64,000 nucleotides of DNA from Gemmobacter aquarius (GTDB lineage Bacteria > Pseudomonadota > Alphaproteobacteria > Rhodobacterales > Rhodobacteraceae), in the NCBI RefSeq assembly GCF_003060865.1, contig NZ_CP028918.1, positions 2,406,001 to 2,470,000 on the forward strand. Reading direction: 5' to 3'. The notes below the pieces were generated by a model, which saw only the letters and a program-made list of their open reading frames with translations, did not search any database and had not been told where the DNA came from. Position numbers and translations under genes: made by a program. Positions 1-28,527 of the stretch are shown one piece after another (position 1 is the first letter of the stretch; every line of letters begins with the position of its first letter).

Positions 1-615
1 ATAAGGCGCGGGCGTGGTATCGCCATTGCCGTTCTCGTCGCCCTGCGAATGGTCGTGGTCATGCCCATGATCGTTGGCGTGGTCGTGATCATGCGAGTGA
101 TCCTGCGCCTCATGCGTCTCGACCACCGCAGCTTCGGCCTCGACCGGCGTGACCAGCGCATCCGCGCCCGTCTCGTCGCCCAGATCGACGACATCCATCC
201 CGCCGATCTCCGACGATCTCACCGCATCGCGGCGCTGCCCTTCAGGGCGGGGCCGCGAATTGCCGTTGCCGTTGCCGTTGCTGCGCGGCCGGCTGCGACG
301 ATTGTCCTCCTCGTCCTCGGCCCGGTTCAGCGCCCGCTCTTCCTCAAGCAGCGCTTTGCGGTCGGCGACGGGGATCTGGTAATAATCCGGATGGATCTCG
401 GCAAAGGCCAGAAACCCGTGCCGGTTTCCGCCGTAATCCACGAAAGCCGCCTGCAACGACGGCTCGACGCGCGTCACCTTGGCGAGATAGATGTTTCCGG
501 CGAGCTGCCGCTTGTTGACCGTCTCAAAGTCGAATTCTTCGACCTTGTTTCCGTCCACCACCACAACGCGGGTCTCTTCCGCATGGGTGGCATCGATAAG
601 CATTTTCTTGGTCAT
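1..615 (-). CDS. rne: Ribonuclease E/G, N-terminal part (runs off the left edge)
   Basis: Endoribonuclease for mRNA decay and rRNA processing, cytoplasmic or membrane-associated. Translation from the ATG at 613-615 begins MTKKMLIDATHAEETRVVVV and continues through NKRQLAGNIYLAKVTRVEPS and AFVDYGGNRHGFLAF, the S1-type RNA-binding start of RNase E/G. The S1 fold is then broken by a low-complexity insert: an Arg/Gly/Asn tract (about residues 98-118), an acidic segment, and a His/Asp-rich run (about residues 165-190, HDHDHANDHGHDHDH). Rhodobacterial RNase E proteins usually carry an insert at this point, though I cannot judge its length here. The catalytic DNase I-like domain and zinc-link lie outside the window. 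All 205 visible codons are open. Family assignment is secure. Confidence 0.93.
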   Translation of the reverse strand, partial: MTKKMLIDATHAEETRVVVVDGNKVEEFDFETVNKRQLAGNIYLAKVTRVEPSLQAAFVDYGGNRHGFLAFAEIHPDYYQIPVADRKALLEEERALNRAEDEEDNRRSRPRSNGNGNGNSRPRPEGQRRDAVRSSEIGGMDVVDLGDETGADALVTPVEAEAAVVETHEAQDHSHDHDHANDHGHDHDHSQGDENGNGDTTPAPY

Positions 616-1023
616 GGTGTTCCAATGCACCCCGCGCCAGCGGTGGCGGCCCCGCTACGGGTCCGTCATCGGCAGGGAAAGGGCGGCTTGTTCGGGCAAG
701 ACGGCGCGCGGCGAAGGGAGGGGTCCTGCCCTGTGGGCAGCCCTCTCCCGTCGTCATTGCATTCGCACGCGTCATCGCGGTTCTCTCTAGAACCCCTCAC
801 AGGGCTCTGCTGATAAAAGCCCGCTTGCGTCAAAGACTTGGCCGGGCAAACTGACGACCTTTCGGCCGATCCGACTGTCCCCTCGCGGCGCGACATGCGC
901 GACCTGCAAGGGCACAGAGAATTCTACTGCGGGCTGTAGACCCGTGTCCTTCGACCCTAGCGGGAAACACCCGGCAAACACAATGGGAGATTTAACTCCA
1001 GTGACCGCCGCCCGCCGCCCAAG
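616..1023 (-). promoter_or_regulatory. Long non-coding leader upstream of rne
   Basis: About 400 bases without a credible gene separate rne from the repeat array next to dctD. On either strand it can form small hairpins: arms CTGCCC/GGGCAG at 726-740 around TGT, and GGTTCT/AGAACC at 779-794 around CTCT. In other proteobacteria the rne mRNA has a long 5' leader through which RNase E limits its own synthesis. A similar role here is inference from length and structure only. Confidence 0.4.
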
Positions 1024-1140
1024 CGTTTTCTGACGCAGAAAACGGAGCGGAATTTGACGCAAATTCCGCCCCCCGCCCTTCCCGCGCCAGCCACCGTTTT
1101 TTGCGTCAAAAATCGACGCGAAATCTGCGTCAGATTTCGC
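1024..1140. repeat. Four-hairpin TG(ACG/CGT)CA array, copy 1
   Basis: Four short inverted repeats follow each other. Hairpin 1 (1024-1044) has arms CGTTTTCTG/CAGAAAACG around ACG. Hairpin 2 (1047-1069) has GCGGAATTTG/CAAATTCCGC around ACG. Hairpin 3 (1095-1115) has CGTTTTTTG/CAAAAATCG around CGT, with one T-T mismatch. Hairpin 4 (1118-1140) has GCGAAATCTG/CAGATTTCGC around CGT. Only the TG-loop-CA core is constant; the arms differ between hairpins but stay complementary within each. The array ends 5 bp before the dctD stop codon. A second copy with the same order lies at 25615-25726. Confidence 0.9.
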
Positions 1141-1145
1141 CCGGC

Positions 1146-2474
1146 TCAGACGTAATCCCCCCGGCTCAACCCGTATTTCGCCATCTTCTCGTTCAGCGTC
1201 CGCCGCGGCAGGCACAGCTCGTCCATCACCGCCACGATAGACCCCTTGTGCCGCCGCATCGTGTTGTCGATCAGCATCCGCTCGAAAGCTTCCACATATT
1301 CCTTCAGGGGCTTGCCCTCGGTCGTCATCGCAGGCCCCGTCGCCTCGTTGTCGGCCATCAGCAGGCTGGCAATCGACCCCGACCCGCGCCGGTTCTGCAA
1401 CACCGCCCGTTCGGCAATGTTCACCAACTGGCGCACATTCCCCGGCCAGGGCGCCTGCAACAGTTGCGCCGCCTCTTGCGCCGTCACCTGCGGCGCGTCG
1501 CAGCCGTATTCTTCCGCGAACTGCTCGGACATCCGCGTGAACAGCGTCAGGATATCCTCGCCCCGCACCCGCAAGGGCGGGCACAGGATCGTCATCGCCC
1601 CCAGCCGGTAATAAAGGTCCGACCGCAGCACATCCTCCAGCGTCTTGTCCGGCGCATGTTCGTTGCAGATCGCGATGATCCGCGTCTCGGGCGGCATCCC
1701 CTGCTCGTTGATCAGCGTCAAAAGCCGCGCCTGCAAGGGCTGGCTCATCGCCTCGATATCTTCCAGACACAGCGTCCCGCCCCGCGCCTCCTCGACCAGC
1801 GGGATCGTCCCCTCTTCCGAAGGCCCGAACAGCTTGGCCACCAACTGGTCCTCGCTCCACGCCGCACAGGAAATCGTCACGAACTTCTTCGACGCCCGCG
1901 GCCCCACCGCATGCAGCGCATGGGCCACCAGCGTCTTGCCCGTCCCCGTCTCGCCATCGATCAGCACATGGCTGTCGGCTTGACCAAGATCGAGGATATC
2001 CTCGCGCAGCCGCTCCATCGCGGGCGATCCGCCGATCAGCTTCTTCATCAGGATAGAGCCGTCCGAAAGCTCCTTCCTCAGCGCGCGGTTGTCCAGCGTC
2101 AGCCGCCGCGTCTGCGTCGCCTTCTTGGCAAGCTCGGTCATCCGGTCCGGGTTGAACGGCTTTTCCAGAAAATCGAACGCCCCCACCCGCATGGCTTCCA
2201 CCGCCATGGGCACATCGCCATGCCCGGTGATCAGAATGACCGGCAGCCCCGAATCCATGCTCATCAGCCGCTTGAGAAACGCCATCCCGTCCATCCCCGG
2301 CATCTTGATGTCGCTGACCACGACACCCGGAAATTCCGGCCCGATCCCCTTGAGCGCATCTTCGGCGCTGGCATAGGTCTCGGTATCAAAGCCCGACAGG
2401 GCCAGCCACTGGCTGATCGACTGGCGCATATCCGCCTCGTCATCGACAATCGCAACCTTCATCGCACGGGCCAT
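1146..2474 (-). CDS. dctD: DctD-like C4-dicarboxylate response regulator (NtrC family) lacking the GAFTGA loop
   Basis: Response regulator paired with the upstream sensor DctB (18-bp gap, same strand), expected to control C4-dicarboxylate transport genes, which are not in this window. Domains in order: receiver (phospho-acceptor Asp55 in VVVSDIKMPG), AAA+ ATPase (Walker A GETGTGKT near residue 175, Walker B region GGTLCLEDIE), and a C-terminal Fis-type helix-turn-helix ending RRTLNEKMAKYGL. The loop that normally reads GAFTGA and contacts sigma-54 is replaced by LFGPSEEGTIPLVEEA around residues 212-227. Sigma-54 activation is therefore unlikely. Rhodobacter capsulatus NtrC, which also lacks GAFTGA, works with the housekeeping sigma factor. 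Start could also be Met5. Confidence 0.85.
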   Translation of the reverse strand: MARAMKVAIVDDEADMRQSISQWLALSGFDTETYASAEDALKGIGPEFPGVVVSDIKMPGMDGMAFLKRLMSMDSGLPVILITGHGDVPMAVEAMRVGAFDFLEKPFNPDRMTELAKKATQTRRLTLDNRALRKELSDGSILMKKLIGGSPAMERLREDILDLGQADSHVLIDGETGTGKTLVAHALHAVGPRASKKFVTISCAAWSEDQLVAKLFGPSEEGTIPLVEEARGGTLCLEDIEAMSQPLQARLLTLINEQGMPPETRIIAICNEHAPDKTLEDVLRSDLYYRLGAMTILCPPLRVRGEDILTLFTRMSEQFAEEYGCDAPQVTAQEAAQLLQAPWPGNVRQLVNIAERAVLQNRRGSGSIASLLMADNEATGPAMTTEGKPLKEYVEAFERMLIDNTMRRHKGSIVAVMDELCLPRRTLNEKMAKYGLSRGDYV

Positions 2475-4310: not shown

Positions 4311-4979
4311 TCAGGCAAGCGCCATACCGCCCAGAAGCGAAGCGAACAGCGCAGCCCCGTCCGTTCCGCCATGCATCCGGTCCACCACCCGCTCGGGATG
4401 CGGCATCATCCCCAGAACGCGCCGGTTTTCCGAAAGGATCCCCGCAATATCGGCCATCGACCCGTTCGGGTTCGACGCATAGGTGAACGCGACCCGGTCC
4501 TGATCGTGCAAAGCCCGCAGCCCCTCGGCATCGATGGTAAAATTCCCGTCATGATGCGCCACCGGCACCTGAATGGCCGCCCCCTTGCCGTAACCGGCAG
4601 TAAAGGCGCTGTCCGCCGTCGCCACGTTCAGGGTCAGCATCTTGCAGATGAACTTCAGCCCCGCGTTCCGCATCAAGGCACCGGGCAGCAGCCCCATCTC
4701 GGTCAGCACCTGAAAGCCGTTGCACACCCCCAGCACATAACCGCCGCGCCCCGCATGGGCCTTGACCGCCGCCCCGATGGGCGATTGCGCCGCAATCGCC
4801 CCGCAGCGCAGATAGTCACCGAACGAAAACCCGCCCGGCACGCCCACGACATCCACCCCCGCAGGCAGGGCGGTGTCCTTGTGCCAGACCCGCACCACCT
4901 CGAACCCCGCCCGCTCGAAGCCAAGCGCAAGATCACGGTCGCAATTCGACCCCGGAAAGGTGACGACGGCGGCTTTCAT
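4311..4979 (-). CDS. purQ: Phosphoribosylformylglycinamidine synthase subunit PurQ
   Basis: Glutaminase subunit of the three-part FGAM synthase (PurL-PurQ-PurS) in purine synthesis, cytoplasmic. The 222-aa protein is a class I glutamine amidotransferase: [16 protein letters not shown] at the start, oxyanion region [16 protein letters not shown], nucleophile Cys in VLGVCNGFQ, and the His/Glu of MMPHPER near the C-terminus. The ATG at 4977-4979 follows AGGAG at a good distance. The frame stays open far upstream (to 5657), but that part only reads antisense through the GlxA-type regulator. purS and purL are not adjacent, so this copy is separated from the usual purS-purQ pair. Confidence 0.95.
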
Positions 4980-23994: not shown

Positions 23995-24867
23995 TCAGCG
24001 TTGGCCATAATACAGGCCCACCACATGCTCGGCTTGTGCAAAGAAAAGCCAGCGCACGACGAACATGCCACAAAGATGGAACGCTGCTGCAACCGGCACC
24101 GCCAGCATGACCGGCAGGAAGATCAGCGCCAATACCGGCACCAGCCCGACGGCAACCAACGAGATCTGGCGCAGCCGCGTCCCATGTTTGCGGCCCACCA
24201 CATGGATCATCTCGCGCATCAGATAATTGCTGCCCGTATGGGGTTGCTCGAACACCGCGACACGCCCGATCGGCCCTAGCCCCGTCGCGCTTTCCATCGT
24301 GCTGCCTGCTTGGGTAAACCGCCGGTCCCCGATGCGCCAGCCCACGACCAGCAGCACCGAAAGCAGCGCCGAAGCCAGCGCCGGAAGCAGGCCCGCCCCG
24401 GCAAGCACCAGCCCACCCGTCAGTGCCGCCCACAGGAACTGCAGCGGCACGATCCGGTGGTTCCAGCGCGGCACCGCCTTGATCTGTGCATATATCATCG
24501 ACGTGCAGCCAACGGTCACGAAACACATCACCCCGCCCGCCACGCCAAAGCCCCGGCCCCAGCCGAACCCCAGCCAATCGGCCAGCGCCTGCGGTGCCAG
24601 AAGCAAAAGCGTGGCAACCGAAGCCCAGGCCTCGCGGCTCAGCCAGCTTGTGCGCCATTGGCTAAAGGCCAAAAGGGCGCGCTGCGGGTTGCCCAGATGC
24701 AGGGTCGAGGCCAGCAACCCGCCCACCGCCAGCGCATAGCCCAACCCCCATGCAAGGAAAGCCGTCACGCCATCGACCGGCGCAATCCCGAAGCCGAGCA
24801 TCGCAAGATAGCCGAACCCCATCCCCGAAATGACAGTGAACACGATGACCGATGGTGCAGGATTCAT
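23995..24867 (-). CDS. soeC: Sulfite dehydrogenase membrane anchor subunit (DmsC/NrfD-like)
   Basis: 290-aa integral membrane protein with about eight helices of the DmsC anchor family (GFGYLAMLGFGIAP, ASTLHLGNPQRALLAFSQWRTSWLSREAWA). It carries electrons from the iron-sulfur subunit to quinone. Its start overlaps the soeB stop by 4 bp. Together with SoeA and SoeB it forms the cytoplasm-facing sulfite:quinone oxidoreductase. The Roseobacter-type placement in a taurine/xsc operon supports SoeC over DMSO reductase DmsC. Confidence 0.85.
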   Translation of the reverse strand: MNPAPSVIVFTVISGMGFGYLAMLGFGIAPVDGVTAFLAWGLGYALAVGGLLASTLHLGNPQRALLAFSQWRTSWLSREAWASVATLLLLAPQALADWLGFGWGRGFGVAGGVMCFVTVGCTSMIYAQIKAVPRWNHRIVPLQFLWAALTGGLVLAGAGLLPALASALLSVLLVVGWRIGDRRFTQAGSTMESATGLGPIGRVAVFEQPHTGSNYLMREMIHVVGRKHGTRLRQISLVAVGLVPVLALIFLPVMLAVPVAAAFHLCGMFVVRWLFFAQAEHVVGLYYGQR

Positions 24868-25604
24868 CCGATCTTCCCCAGCACACGGTCAAGCCATCCG
24901 GCAAACCCCGTCGCCTTGATGTCCAGCAGCGGGGCCAGCAGGCTCGCATCCTGCGGGGCATCCTTCTTGCGCGGCGGCAGGTAGCGGTTCACCGGCTTGG
25001 TTCCCATTTCCGGCATCAGCGCATAGCCGCCGCGCTCGGCGGTCAGGCGGCTGACCTTGCTGTCTGGGTCGGCGAAGTCACCGAAATGCCGCGCACCGGT
25101 CGGACAGGTCCGCACGCAGGCGGGCTCACGGTCCTCCTCGGGCAGGGTCTCGTTGTAGATGCGGTCCACGCAGAGCGTGCATTTCTTCATCACCCCCGCC
25201 GCCGCATCCATCTCGCGCGCGCCGTAAGGGCAGGCCCATGAACACAACCCGCAGCCGATGCAGGCGTCCTCGTTCACCAGAACGATCCCGTCTTCCACGC
25301 GCTTGTAACTGGCCCCTGTCGGGCAGACGGTGACGCAAGGCGCATCCTCGCAATGCAGGCAGGACCGCGGAAAATTGATGGTCTGCGCCGGTCCCGCCTC
25401 GGGCTGTACCGAATAGCTGTGAACACGGTTCAGAAAGGTGCCGGACGGATCGGCGCCGTAAGGGTTCTGATCCGACAGTGGCGCACCATAGCCCTGATCG
25501 TTCCAGCCCTTGCAGGCAGTCACGCAGGCATGACACCCCACGCAGGTATCAAGATCGACGACAAGGCCGAGCTTTTTTTCGGTATGACTTGGCAAAGCCG
25601 TCAT
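24864..25604 (-). CDS. soeB: Sulfite dehydrogenase iron-sulfur subunit (four 4Fe-4S clusters)
   Basis: 246 aa with four ferredoxin-type cysteine groups: CVGCHACVTAC, CLHCEDAPCVTVCP, CIGCGLCSWACPYG and CTLCVDR...CVRTCP. This is the electron-transfer subunit between the molybdenum subunit SoeA and the anchor SoeC. It lacks a signal peptide, so the complex faces the cytoplasm. Downstream it overlaps soeC by 4 bp. Upstream it is separated from soeA by 142 bp filled by a hairpin array, the only sizeable gap in the operon. DmsB is the close alternative; context decides. Confidence 0.88.
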   Translation of the reverse strand: MTALPSHTEKKLGLVVDLDTCVGCHACVTACKGWNDQGYGAPLSDQNPYGADPSGTFLNRVHSYSVQPEAGPAQTINFPRSCLHCEDAPCVTVCPTGASYKRVEDGIVLVNEDACIGCGLCSWACPYGAREMDAAAGVMKKCTLCVDRIYNETLPEEDREPACVRTCPTGARHFGDFADPDSKVSRLTAERGGYALMPEMGTKPVNRYLPPRKKDAPQDASLLAPLLDIKATGFAGWLDRVLGKIG

Positions 25605-25614
25605 TCTACGCCCC

Positions 25615-25726
25615 CGTTTTCTGACGCAGAAAACGCGCCGGAATTTGACGCAAATTCCGGATTGCCCCGACGTCGCACCCCGAATTCTGCGTCAGAATTC
25701 GTCGCGATTTCTGCGTCAGAAATCGC
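25615..25726. repeat. Four-hairpin TG(ACG/CGT)CA array, copy 2
   Basis: Same architecture as 1024-1140. Hairpin 1 (25615-25635): CGTTTTCTG/CAGAAAACG around ACG. Hairpin 2 (25638-25660): CCGGAATTTG/CAAATTCCGG around ACG. Hairpin 3 (25681-25701): CGAATTCTG/CAGAATTCG around CGT. Hairpin 4 (25704-25726): GCGATTTCTG/CAGAAATCGC around CGT. All four stems are perfect. Hairpin 1 has the same arms as hairpin 1 of copy 1; the others differ. It fills the soeA-soeB gap, so it will be transcribed. Confidence 0.92.
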
Positions 25727-25746: not shown

Positions 25747-28527
25747 TCATGCCCGTTCCCCCCCTTGCGGCACGACCCTCGGCACAGCCGCAAATTCCGG
25801 CTCCGAATGATCCCTCGGCCCCACGCGCTCGACCCTTACCCGCAGATCGAACCACGCCGCCTGCCCCGTCACCGGATCGCTGTTGCTCCAGCGGTGCCCG
25901 TCACCCTTTTCCGGCAGCAGTTCCGAAATCAGATGGTTCAGCAAAAACCCTTCAGTCGCCTCGGGTCCGCCTTCGTCCAAAGCCCACGCGCCTTTGCGCT
26001 TGCCGATCGCATTCCACGTCCAGACAGTGTTTTCATTCAACGCCGCCATATGCGCGACCGGCACCACGATCTCGCCGTTGGGCGATGTCACGCGCGCGTA
26101 ATCCCCTTCGGCAAAGCCCTCGCCCTGCCAGATCTTCGTTGGCACATAGAGGTAATTCTTCCCGTGAATCTGGCGCAGCCACGCGTTCTGGCTGCCCCAG
26201 GAATGATACATCGCCATCGGCCGCTGCGTCAGCGCATGCACCGGATAGCCCGCCGCCGCCTCGTCGCCAAACGGCGGATACCAAACCGGCAACGGGTCCA
26301 TAGCCAGTTTCAACTGTTCACGCAGATGGTCGGGCGGCTGGATGAAGCCTTGCCCTTCGGCGGCAAGCTGGAACTTCCGCATCGGCTCGGACCAGATCGA
26401 AAACAGGTAAGGCTGCGGCGATTCGTAAAACGAGGTTTGCACCGCCCAATCCTGATAGGCCGCGTTCCAAGGTTTGTAATACTGCGCCCCCTCCGGCACA
26501 TGCGCCTGATAGAAGCCGCCATTGTCGATATAACGCTGCATCTGGTCGGGGTTCGGATCACCCCGCCCTTCCGCCTTGCCGTCGCCGCGAAACCCGATCA
26601 GCGGCCCCACTCCGGGCCTGCGCTGGTGGTTCACGATGTAATCGGCGTAATCCCTGAACTTCGCCGTCCCGTCGGGGTTCGTCATCCCGGGCAGACCCAG
26701 CCGCACCCCCAGATCGAGCAAGACCGACTGGAACGGCCGCACATCGCGGTCCACGTCAGCCACCGGCCAGCGGATGGCATCGCCCGCAGCATCGGGTTCC
26801 GAAATCGGGCGATCCAGCAACGAAATGCAGTCATGCCGCTCAAGATAGGTCGTATCGGGCAAGATCAGATCGGCATAGGCCACCATCTCGGACGCATAGG
26901 CATCGCTATAGATGATCCGCGGAATCACATATTCCCCGTCCGCGCCCTTGTCTGTCAGCATCTCCATGACACGGCCCGAATTCATCGACGAATTCCACGA
27001 CATGTTCGCCATGTAAAGAAACAGCGTGTCGACCTTGTAGGGGTCGCCCGCATGGGCGTTGGGGATCACCATATGCATCAGCCCATGCGCCGAAAACGGG
27101 TTCTCCCACGTGAACGCCTTGTCGATCCGCCAAGGTGTTCCGTCCTCTTTCAGCGCCAGATTCTCTGGCCCGCGCACATAGCCCAAGTGCGGCCCGCTCA
27201 GCGGCTTGCCCGCAGCCGCCACGAAATGCGGCGTCGGATGCGCCTCGACGGGCTTGGGGTATGGCGGCTTCAGCCGGTATCCCCCCGGCACCTCGACCGT
27301 GCCGAGGATGATCTGCAACAGATGCAGCGCACGCGCCGTCTGGAACCCGTTGGAATGCGCCGAAATCCCGCGCATCGCATGAAAGGACACCGGCCGCCCC
27401 GTCATGGTCGCATGCTTGTCGCCGCGAAAATCCGTCCACTCCACCGGCAGATCGAACGCCTCGTCGAACGCCACCCGCGCCAGTTCCGCCGCCAGCGCCC
27501 TTATCCGCGCCGCCGGAATGCCGACCCGCCCCGCCACCGCCTCGGGCGCGTATTCCTCGGCCAGATACCGCTCGGCCATATGCTGGAACACCGTCCGGTG
27601 CCCCTGCCAGACCGCGCCGAGATCAGGCTGCACCCCCGCCCCGTCCCATGGCGCAGGCATCCCCGTGCGCTTGTCGATCACGAAGGGCTGGCTTTCGGCG
27701 TTCTTGAGGATCAGCCCCTTCTCGGCCCCCTCCGCCTCGTTCACCAGCAAAGGCGCATTGGTCCAGCGCGCCAGATAATCCAGATCGATCTTCCCCGCCG
27801 CCAACAGGCAGTGGATCAGCGACAGGATCAGCAACCCGTCCGTCCCCGGCGTGATCCCCAGCCAGTCGTCGGCGACCGCATTATACCCGGTGCGGATCGG
27901 GTTGACCCCAATCACCCGCGCGCCCCGCGCCTTCAGCTTGCCCAAACCGATCTTGATCGGGTTGCTGTCATGATCCTCGGCCACGCCGAACATCACGAAC
28001 AACTTCGTATGCGCCCAATCCGGCTGCCCGAACTCCCAGAACGCGCCACCGATCGTGTAAATCCCCGCCGCCGCCATGTTCACCGAACAGAACCCGCCAT
28101 GCGCCGCATAGTTGGGCGTTCCGAACTGCTGCGCCCACCAGCCCGTGAAACTCTGGCTCTGATCACGCCCCGTGAAAAACGCCAGCTTCTCGGGTGCCTC
28201 CTCGCGCAACGGCTTCATCCATGAAACCGCCAGCGCCAACGCCTCGTCCCAGCTGATCTCCTCGAACGCCCCCGACCCCCGCGGCCCGACCCGCCGCAGC
28301 GGAGCGCGCAACCGGCTCGGCGCCGTCACCTGCATGATCCCCGACGCCCCCTTGGCGCAGAGAACCCCCTTGTTCACCGGATGGTCGCGGTTCCCCTCGA
28401 TATAGGTGACCTTGCCGCTGTTCATATGCACGTTGATCCCGCAGCGACAGGCGCACATGTAGCAGGTGGTCTTGCGAACCTCGTCCGAGACGGGCCGTTG
28501 CGTGTCGACCTTCGGTTGTCCCATCAC
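25747..28527 (-). CDS. soeA: Sulfite dehydrogenase molybdopterin subunit
   Basis: 926-aa molybdopterin oxidoreductase of the DMSO reductase superfamily. N-terminal 4Fe-4S site CYMCACRCGINVHM...GVLCAKG, then a bis-MGD binding core and a C-terminal dinucleotide-binding domain (YPVHALTQRPMAMYHSWGSQ). There is no twin-arginine signal, so it is cytoplasmic. SoeABC oxidises sulfite released by Xsc to sulfate and passes electrons to quinone. It overlaps ackA by 4 bp and precedes soeB. The family also includes thiosulfate and polysulfide reductases; the xsc-tauE-ackA context makes sulfite dehydrogenase the best call. Confidence 0.87.
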   Translation of the reverse strand: MMGQPKVDTQRPVSDEVRKTTCYMCACRCGINVHMNSGKVTYIEGNRDHPVNKGVLCAKGASGIMQVTAPSRLRAPLRRVGPRGSGAFEEISWDEALALAVSWMKPLREEAPEKLAFFTGRDQSQSFTGWWAQQFGTPNYAAHGGFCSVNMAAAGIYTIGGAFWEFGQPDWAHTKLFVMFGVAEDHDSNPIKIGLGKLKARGARVIGVNPIRTGYNAVADDWLGITPGTDGLLILSLIHCLLAAGKIDLDYLARWTNAPLLVNEAEGAEKGLILKNAESQPFVIDKRTGMPAPWDGAGVQPDLGAVWQGHRTVFQHMAERYLAEEYAPEAVAGRVGIPAARIRALAAELARVAFDEAFDLPVEWTDFRGDKHATMTGRPVSFHAMRGISAHSNGFQTARALHLLQIILGTVEVPGGYRLKPPYPKPVEAHPTPHFVAAAGKPLSGPHLGYVRGPENLALKEDGTPWRIDKAFTWENPFSAHGLMHMVIPNAHAGDPYKVDTLFLYMANMSWNSSMNSGRVMEMLTDKGADGEYVIPRIIYSDAYASEMVAYADLILPDTTYLERHDCISLLDRPISEPDAAGDAIRWPVADVDRDVRPFQSVLLDLGVRLGLPGMTNPDGTAKFRDYADYIVNHQRRPGVGPLIGFRGDGKAEGRGDPNPDQMQRYIDNGGFYQAHVPEGAQYYKPWNAAYQDWAVQTSFYESPQPYLFSIWSEPMRKFQLAAEGQGFIQPPDHLREQLKLAMDPLPVWYPPFGDEAAAGYPVHALTQRPMAMYHSWGSQNAWLRQIHGKNYLYVPTKIWQGEGFAEGDYARVTSPNGEIVVPVAHMAALNENTVWTWNAIGKRKGAWALDEGGPEATEGFLLNHLISELLPEKGDGHRWSNSDPVTGQAAWFDLRVRVERVGPRDHSEPEFAAVPRVVPQGGERA

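Follow-up and report, generated by a model that had tools for sequence, protein, structure and literature searches.

Arrays of four small hairpins with a near-constant loop and variable arms at gene ends in Gemmobacter aquarius and its relatives

Two four-hairpin arrays and their copies in the genome

The window, i.e., the whole stretch of 64,000 nucleotides of Gemmobacter aquarius DNA analysed here, contains two arrays, A and B, each composed of four hairpins with 3-nt loops. The initial annotation had placed them at these two positions with the loops in the order ACG, ACG, CGT, CGT, and this description was borne out. Array A adjoins the end of a gene for a sigma-54 response regulator, and array B is located between two Dms-like genes, as follows.

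1..615, minus strand: gene with a Pfam S1 match below cut-off, which we take to be RNase E-like; start 407 bp from array A
1023..1140: array A, four hairpins in the order ++--; covariance model R2, 91.4 bits (+) and 90.2 bits (-)
1024..1044, plus strand: array A hairpin 1, loop ACG, 9 perfect pairs
1047..1069, plus strand: array A hairpin 2, loop ACG, 10 perfect pairs
1094..1116, minus strand: array A hairpin 3, loop CGT on the plus strand, one internal mismatch in nine pairs
1118..1140, minus strand: array A hairpin 4, loop CGT on the plus strand, 10 perfect pairs
1146..2474, minus strand: sigma-54 response regulator gene (Pfam Response_reg and Sigma54_activat); stop 5 bp from array A
24864..25604, minus strand: 4Fe-4S (DmsB-like) gene, by Pfam; start 9 bp from array B
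25614..25726: array B, four hairpins in the order ++--; R2, 103.2 bits (+) and 102.3 bits (-)
25615..25635, plus strand: array B hairpin 1, loop ACG, 9 perfect pairs
25638..25660, plus strand: array B hairpin 2, loop ACG, 10 perfect pairs
25681..25701, minus strand: array B hairpin 3, loop CGT on the plus strand, 9 perfect pairs
25704..25726, minus strand: array B hairpin 4, loop CGT on the plus strand, 10 perfect pairs
25747..28524, minus strand: molybdopterin oxidoreductase (DmsA-like) gene, by Pfam; stop 20 bp from array B

The window hairpins are about 23 nt long, with a C-G base, an AT-rich arm, and T-A and G-C pairs beside the 3-nt loop, and seven of the eight are perfect over at least nine pairs. 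Eight perfect hairpins of 9 bp with a 3-nt loop were found in the window, seven of them inside the arrays, with three pairs at exactly 24 bp, compared with a mean of 0.3 such hairpins and no pair at 24 bp in 20 first-order Markov sequences of the same length. With a full-array covariance model, whose alignment includes array B (as L123) and excludes array A, the two arrays were the sole places in the window with E values below 1 (1e-18 or less; next best, 1). Rfam release 15 gave no match at the gathering score in the window, and a tRNA search of it returned nothing. The window also holds a lone GC-rich hairpin with ten perfect pairs and a 3-nt loop at 4779-4801, outside the four-hairpin family, and 407 bp without a called gene at 616-1022, which separate the start of the RNase E-like gene from array A.

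The two arrays are not the sole copies. A hairpin pattern with free arms matched the source genome 225 times, versus 40 for a backwards control, and three cores in array order matched 25 times versus 0. A covariance model built from the eight window hairpins gave 217 matches in this genome; among the matches listed (150), there were 50 clusters, all on the 3.69-Mb contig C1 of a 4.2-Mb genome in four contigs. In the usual unit, a pair of ACG-loop hairpins and a pair of CGT-loop hairpins, each with a 24-bp step, are joined in that order by a variable spacer. Inspection of all 50 clusters under a fixed hairpin threshold showed the exact ++-- order in 33, the others being shorter or longer versions, and in none was the hairpin order broken. 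Of the successive-hairpin distances below 30 bp in the arrays of this genome, 87 of 88 were 24 bp. Finders that require the cores or the 24-bp step overlook degenerate arrays.

In two arrays of the source genome, L091 and L113, the front pair is repeated (++++--), apparently by partial tandem duplications of 220 and 140 bp, respectively. Three further hairpins flagged by the script sit 81 to 313 bp past their arrays and appear unrelated to them.

Base pairing, letter changes and neighbouring hairpins

We assembled a set of 126 arrays (125 distinct sequences), with 44 from the source genome, 56 from a genome collection and 26 from other genomes of the genus. These arrays share ancestry, so that permutation p-values are only guides, and the reversed-sequence control has little force, since reversal removes the very core on which the finder relies. 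No fixed tetranucleotide was present in the ten bases flanking the arrays on either side. Over nine pairs, 458 of the 504 hairpins were perfect, and 46 of 4509 pairs were mismatched after three degenerate slots had been dropped. Read in a single orientation, the loops were ACG in 433 of 501 hairpins, GCG in 43, ACA in 22 and GCA in 3, and the closing pairs T-A or C.A were also found in copies elsewhere than in the window. The TG/CA core that had been described as fixed is therefore near-constant. Its letters suggested an FNR-type binding site, which was ruled out, as FNR sites are described in the part of PMC4634722 consulted as single 14-mers of another form.

The arms had been said to differ between the two window copies yet to stay complementary. 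This holds for hairpins 3 and 4 and for the base of hairpin 2; the arms of hairpin 1 are identical, hairpin 2 differs only at its outermost pair, and the hairpin at 1094-1116 has its one mismatch. In an alignment of 40 arrays, 96.9% of the cells pair, compared with 76.6% in shuffles and at most 53.3% if slid by one to three columns. Both sides were changed in 30 of the 40 pairs (307 cells), versus 19.7 in shuffles, and one-sided changes amounted to 6 cells; covariation was 0.521 versus 0.137 in shuffles.

Orthologous sites were then considered. Across 1152 pairs in 32 comparisons there were 117 two-sided Watson-Crick changes, 26 one-sided changes and 7 two-sided non-Watson-Crick changes, and 52 of the 128 hairpins were unchanged. 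The comparisons given numbered 33, one of them without an array, and they comprised 21 of 23 two-flank matches (minus L217 and L231), 8 of 9 Dms-site loci and 4 of 5 L103-site loci (minus the near-duplicates L130 and L149); since arrays of the source genome recur in them, they are not independent. Thus, orthologous arrays do not simply share letters, and simple end-to-end descent, the outcome that the initial annotation had set against selection, was not seen. Its proposal that the structure is selected is supported by the ratio of two-sided to one-sided changes, even though template switching is an alternative source of such changes (PMC8794818, consulted in part). We regard selection for structure as the likelier reading of the paired change than template switching at palindromes.

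At the Dms site, the array was kept in nine aligned genomes, with 6 pairs changed on both sides and 32 of the 40 pairs or more otherwise standard, and the middle spacer varied in both length and letters.

A third set of 40 arrays, in which L451, L456 and L464 duplicate arrays of the earlier set, showed a subtype. Thirteen of the 40 (L428, L433, L439, L440, L442, L445, L447, L453, L454, L455, L457, L460 and L463) showed a single slot in which no more than 3 of 9 pairs formed at the fixed step. Each of these arrays holds an inner hairpin whose core is TGCACGCA in position 2 or TGCGTGCA in position 3, or else TGCGCGCA in L433 and L442, and the changed loop is confined to inner slots. In a separate, post hoc observation, the canonical loop was rarer in the gene-distal hairpin (58 of 78, versus 67, 70 and 73; by subset, 20 of 26 versus 24-25, and 38 of 52 versus 42-48).

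Arms are diverse, with 52 different 7-nt arms in 121 arrays, and adjacent hairpins rarely share them. In 110 distinct arrays, identical arms were found once in hairpins 1 and 2, never in hairpins 3 and 4, and four times in hairpins 2 and 3, compared with 10.0, 9.7 and 16.9 expected from column shuffles. The same scarcity was obtained in the source genome alone (43 arrays; observed/expected, 1/4.8, 0/4.8 and 1/5.7, in the same order) and in the genome collection (50 arrays; 0/4.2, 0/4.1 and 3/8.6). It was replicated in the third set (25 arrays picked by BLAST similarity, 3 of whose 40 source arrays were already in the earlier set), with 0/3.1, 0/1.2 (not significant) and 0/4.6. Non-adjacent hairpins showed no depletion in the tests that preceded the third set (in the 110 arrays, 10/9.3 for hairpins 1 and 4, 17/9.8 for 1 and 3, 12/10.2 for 2 and 4); in the third set, hairpins 1 and 4 gave 0/2.5 (p 0.05), and the other two combinations exceeded expectation. 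Such rarity is what one would expect if every hairpin had to fold on its own, and the same outcome could equally have come from slippage that removes direct or inverted repeats.

Gene ends, site turnover and taxonomic range

Gene context was established with a codon-usage gene caller made for this analysis. The copies are mostly intergenic: by called genes, all 50 arrays of the source genome are so, save L077, which has an overlapping gene call. Twenty-two of the 50 lie between convergent genes, 23 between co-directional genes and 5 between divergent genes, and the convergent share exceeds that of neighbouring gene pairs in the window (8 of 55; p 0.001). Twenty of the 40 arrays of the third set were also convergent, and placement at facing stops was repeated there. 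In the 126-array set, distances to the facing stop codon peaked at 0 (17 cases), -1 (16) and -11 nt (16), and the median distance was 5 to a facing stop versus 77 to a facing start. At -11, the TGA of the hairpin core is itself the stop codon; 16 stop positions in this set are inside hairpin 1.

By a flank test, 23 of the 56 genome-collection arrays lie at the site of an array of the source genome, 6 match on one side and 27 on neither. Convergent placement was found for 11 of the 23 site-shared arrays and 3 of the 27 unshared ones (p 0.005); divergent placement was found for 2 of 23 and 7 of 27, a difference that was not significant (p 0.15). New copies probably land more widely and persist longest between convergent genes.

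Presence or absence of the array varies between species at the same site. At the L194 site, with flanks that are 98 and 96% identical, G018 has a quartet, and G007 has two TTCGAA-centred palindromes between two stop codons. A TTCGAA-type pair is present in four more of nine other loci of this site (G001, G008, G005 and G012), one of them with a varied centre. Among 17 loci of the Dms site, the array is found in the source genome and nine others (one with an adjoining TTCGAA pair), a TTCGAA-type pair in four and other sequence in three. At the L103 site, the strict finder detected the array in 5 of 11 other loci; decay of the array is visible in some of the rest, and in several a TTCGAA pair adjoins it or stands in its place. 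The occurrence of quartets and TTCGAA-type pairs at the same orthologous sites indicates that different hairpin families use the same places.

The TTCGAA family itself consists of paired 22-nt palindromes, some of them varied, which at several orthologous gene ends accompany the quartet or take its place (L133-L136, L147-L151, L153, L156, L397-L400 and L402). No eight-pair TTCGAA arms were detected in the window or in the source-genome loci L075-L122. In three relatives (L137-L139, Dms-site orthologues), the interval between the Dms-like genes carries other inverted repeats, which are GC-rich.

Three-core arrays were found in 15 of 19 genomes of the genus and in none of 42 others. With the full-array model, in which other letters are tolerated, and with stricter filters, matches were obtained in 29 of 295 genomes of the family (28 of 294 genera) and, in a class-wide sample, in 1 of 289 genomes, the source genome. 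We looked at one locus from each of 27 genomes of other genera: eight have a quartet (L288-L295); some of the eight carry other loops, and one has an irregular hairpin. In L291 and L289, hairpins 1 and 3 and hairpins 2 and 4 are near reverse complements (ABAB), and the genus shows the same excess for hairpins 1 and 3. Many weaker matches in other genera are doublets spaced at a 24-nt step, with loops that differ; caution is needed before they are taken as relatives.

A scan of a species collection matched 105 stretches. Among the matches listed (80 of 105), 63 have paired arms and are all labelled as Rhodobacterales (Paragemmobacter species, listed under older genus names, a Tabrizicola, metagenome-assembled genomes and three Aestuariivita stretches), and 17 lack paired arms (16 from unrelated taxa and one from a Sulfitobacter metagenome-assembled genome). 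On these listed matches, chance was rejected as the explanation. In one Aestuariivita stretch, L172, apparent stop codons adjoin the array on both sides, as read by eye with no gene call.

Scans of 400 kb in each of four other genera yielded one doublet of the quartet kind at 24 bp, together with two other close hairpin pairs, in G241, and no doublet of this kind in G310, G021 or G031 (G310 and G021 hold 5000 N each), showing that a wider class is sparse in those samples. A phage or plasmid origin found no support, as array B had no BLAST match in phage and plasmid collections, a weak test with a short and variable query. It is possible, if rather doubtful, that the arrays belong to a wider class of composite hairpin cassettes in scattered genera of the family. 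In such a class, loop and ++-- order would be read by some factor, the arms would be free but Watson-Crick on both strands and unlike the neighbour's, loop types would replace one another at gene ends, and spread would not depend on RAYT.

Possible roles and comparison with known repeats

Parasitic DNA, mRNA ends and landmarks of supercoiling have each been put forward as explanations of REP-like repeats. The best explanation of the present element is a chromosomal, non-coding REP/BIME-like composite repeat whose four 23-nt hairpins are separate and ordered ++--; the loop is constant and the arms are free. As for its role, we tentatively prefer a two-sided end-of-gene element, with a probability of about 0.4. 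The array would settle beside stop codons and last best between convergent genes, and it would be kept there because each hairpin must fold by itself. As the order ++-- is identical on both strands, a transcript coming from either side would meet ACG-loop hairpins first, and the hairpins may terminate, trim or protect transcript ends and keep the adjacent gene insulated. In favour of this role are the pairing data, the preference for stop codons and convergent genes, the convergent bias of site-shared arrays, the other hairpin families at the same spots in relatives and the terminator scan below. The data show the anatomy, the copy number, the paired changes, the avoidance between neighbours, the location and the presence of other families at these sites; formation of the hairpins in the cell, their action on transcripts and the way in which copies move are inferred. 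Several observations speak against this role: array B lies within an apparent operon, 14 of the 126 arrays are between divergent genes, some arrays of the source genome come after an ordinary GC-rich terminator-like hairpin, and no regular U-tract was found after the array.

In both window arrays, a terminator scan picked out hairpins whose tail was supplied by the T-rich arm of the hairpin that follows, with 5 sites (3 in the array) versus 0.8 expected for one and 3 (all in the array) versus 0.8 for the other; the stems are AT-rich, and there is no regular T-run after the array. A function as sense RNA should favour G.U over A.C mismatches. Where a single gene end faces the array, the mismatches comprised 13 G.U and 12 A.C, at 9:9 in the 126-array set and 4:3 in the third set; these near-equal frequencies do not favour sense-strand RNA. 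Also against the end-of-gene role, RNA folding predicted the complete set of four hairpins in only 17 of 252 array strands; two were predicted in 165 strands and no hairpin in 49. Hairpins near to and far from the gene end were equally perfect (70, 68, 73 and 71 of 78). Together, these data suggest that both strands matter, or that DNA hairpins do.

We consider it rather unlikely that the element is selfish, non-autonomous, REPIN-like DNA moved in single-stranded form by a non-RAYT enzyme that would read loop and order, with separate folding serving recognition. Site turnover argues for it, as 27 of the 56 other-genome arrays are off source-genome sites on both flanks, at L205, a divergent site, one locus of 18 has the array, and G018 has a quartet where G007, with nearly identical flanks, has another hairpin pair. 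It is also consistent with the equality of G.U and A.C mismatches, with the patchy range and, as a weak test of insertion, with direct repeats of at least 8 bases beside 5 of the 126 arrays versus 0.9 expected. However, at sites shared between species the arms remain paired, although a copy that no longer moved would be expected to decay there. Shared sites also favour convergent genes, and arrays present in G018 are mostly also at the matching place in G007. The Y1_Tnp family (PF01797) was above cut-off in none of the 19 genomes of the genus, with one sub-threshold match in G008, and was found in 5 of 14 control genomes. On this result, a RAYT-driven REPIN was rejected for these 19 genomes.

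By analogy with BIMEs, the array could be a landmark of DNA topology, bound through its hairpins or AT-rich tracts by a topoisomerase such as gyrase or a nucleoid protein such as GapR, at places where positive supercoiling accumulates. The bias to gene ends and convergent genes would suit this role, as would the location on C1 of all the matches listed and the strict Watson-Crick pairing without strand bias. Gene ends and convergent genes are also where GapR signal is reported to be high, in E. coli and in yeast (PMC8360656); the consulted part of that paper describes no palindrome requirement. AT content alone leaves the pairing constraint on the stems unexplained, and we think this role unlikely.

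Mutation bias alone, in which template switching during replication repairs one arm from the other and gives paired change without function, as reported for rRNA hairpins (PMC8794818, consulted in part), accounts for the large excess of two-sided changes and the lack of G.U bias but is improbable: loop conservation (433 of 501 ACG), the scarcity of identical neighbours and gene-end placement are left unexplained, the ++-- order is unbroken although template switching can invert loops (same source), the arms are nearly constant among the nine Dms-site genomes, and decayed arrays show that repair is not automatic.

We file the four-hairpin element as a new composite variant of the REP/BIME kind, because four of the five general points of a REP definition apply, the super-family tag is absent and no RAYT passed the cut-off. 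On the points given in the part of PMC12306157 consulted, it lies mostly outside coding regions and is palindromic, with predicted stem-loops and a 23-nt unit (about 14-40 nt in E. coli) and 50 clusters; as to a common consensus, core and frame are shared and the arms vary. The unpaired terminal GTAG or CGTC tag was not found, the CGTC letters of the core lying in the loop and closing pairs. The initial annotation could not place the arrays among known repeats, which overstates their foreignness, as placement and dispersal resemble those of REP elements (PMC3733652, consulted in part). Among the papers listed in literature searches aimed at the element or its hosts, none describing it was found.

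GTAG/CGTC REPs are described as small dispersed palindromes, often dimers, mostly intergenic and less than 20 bp from 3' ends between convergent genes. Their ends can provide a stop codon, and some dimers are heterodimers with different stems. CGTC types are said to be common in alphaproteobacteria without a transposase link; Rhodobacter is not named in the main text of that source (PMC3733652 for all these points). The element shares with them dispersal, intergenic gene-end placement, stop supply and unlike stems. It differs from the REPs of PMC3733652, as described in the consulted part, in having no terminal tag and no CCA tail, a 3-nt loop instead of the 4-5 nt of CGTC types, ++-- quartets with free arms instead of single units or dimers, and no G.T bias, whereas frequent G.T pairing is reported there. 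Compared with the REPIN/RAYT system, as far as it is set out in PMC3116915, it has the inverted arrangement around a spacer, chromosome-wide copies and paired changes (for REPINs, in the spacer hairpin). A REPIN is one long hairpin with a RAYT, whereas the units here would fold alone, identical inner partners are scarce (4 versus 16.9) and no RAYT passes the cut-off; RNA folding often leaves two of the four hairpins. Families of 3'-end stem-loops in other bacteria likewise are repeated at 3' ends and in convergent spacers; their sequences and sizes differ, and a four-unit order is not described in the consulted part of PMC1590033. Mitochondrial double-hairpin or repetitive hairpin elements, in the excerpts drawn on, are also paired small hairpins that are apparently mobile, but they are organellar.

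These precedents, namely REP heterodimers and REP-supplied stops (PMC3733652), paired changes in the REPIN spacer (PMC3116915) and the 3'-end bias of stem-loops (PMC1590033), lessen the novelty of the element, within what those partly consulted sources cover. A gyrase link of BIMEs is named in the consulted part of PMC3733652. In the present arrays, structure is parted from sequence unusually cleanly: located at gene ends, they offer hundreds of natural stem variants around a loop that hardly varies. Together with a site that is unlike between genomes whose flanks are 96-98% identical, these variants make the choice between RNA hairpin, DNA hairpin and mutation bias directly testable. The BIMEs of E. 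coli, for which binding of gyrase or IHF is characteristic, combine several palindromic units, each in a set orientation, and lie at gene ends. Like them, the element is a composite of palindromic units at gene ends, with an order, ++--, and a loop identity of its own.
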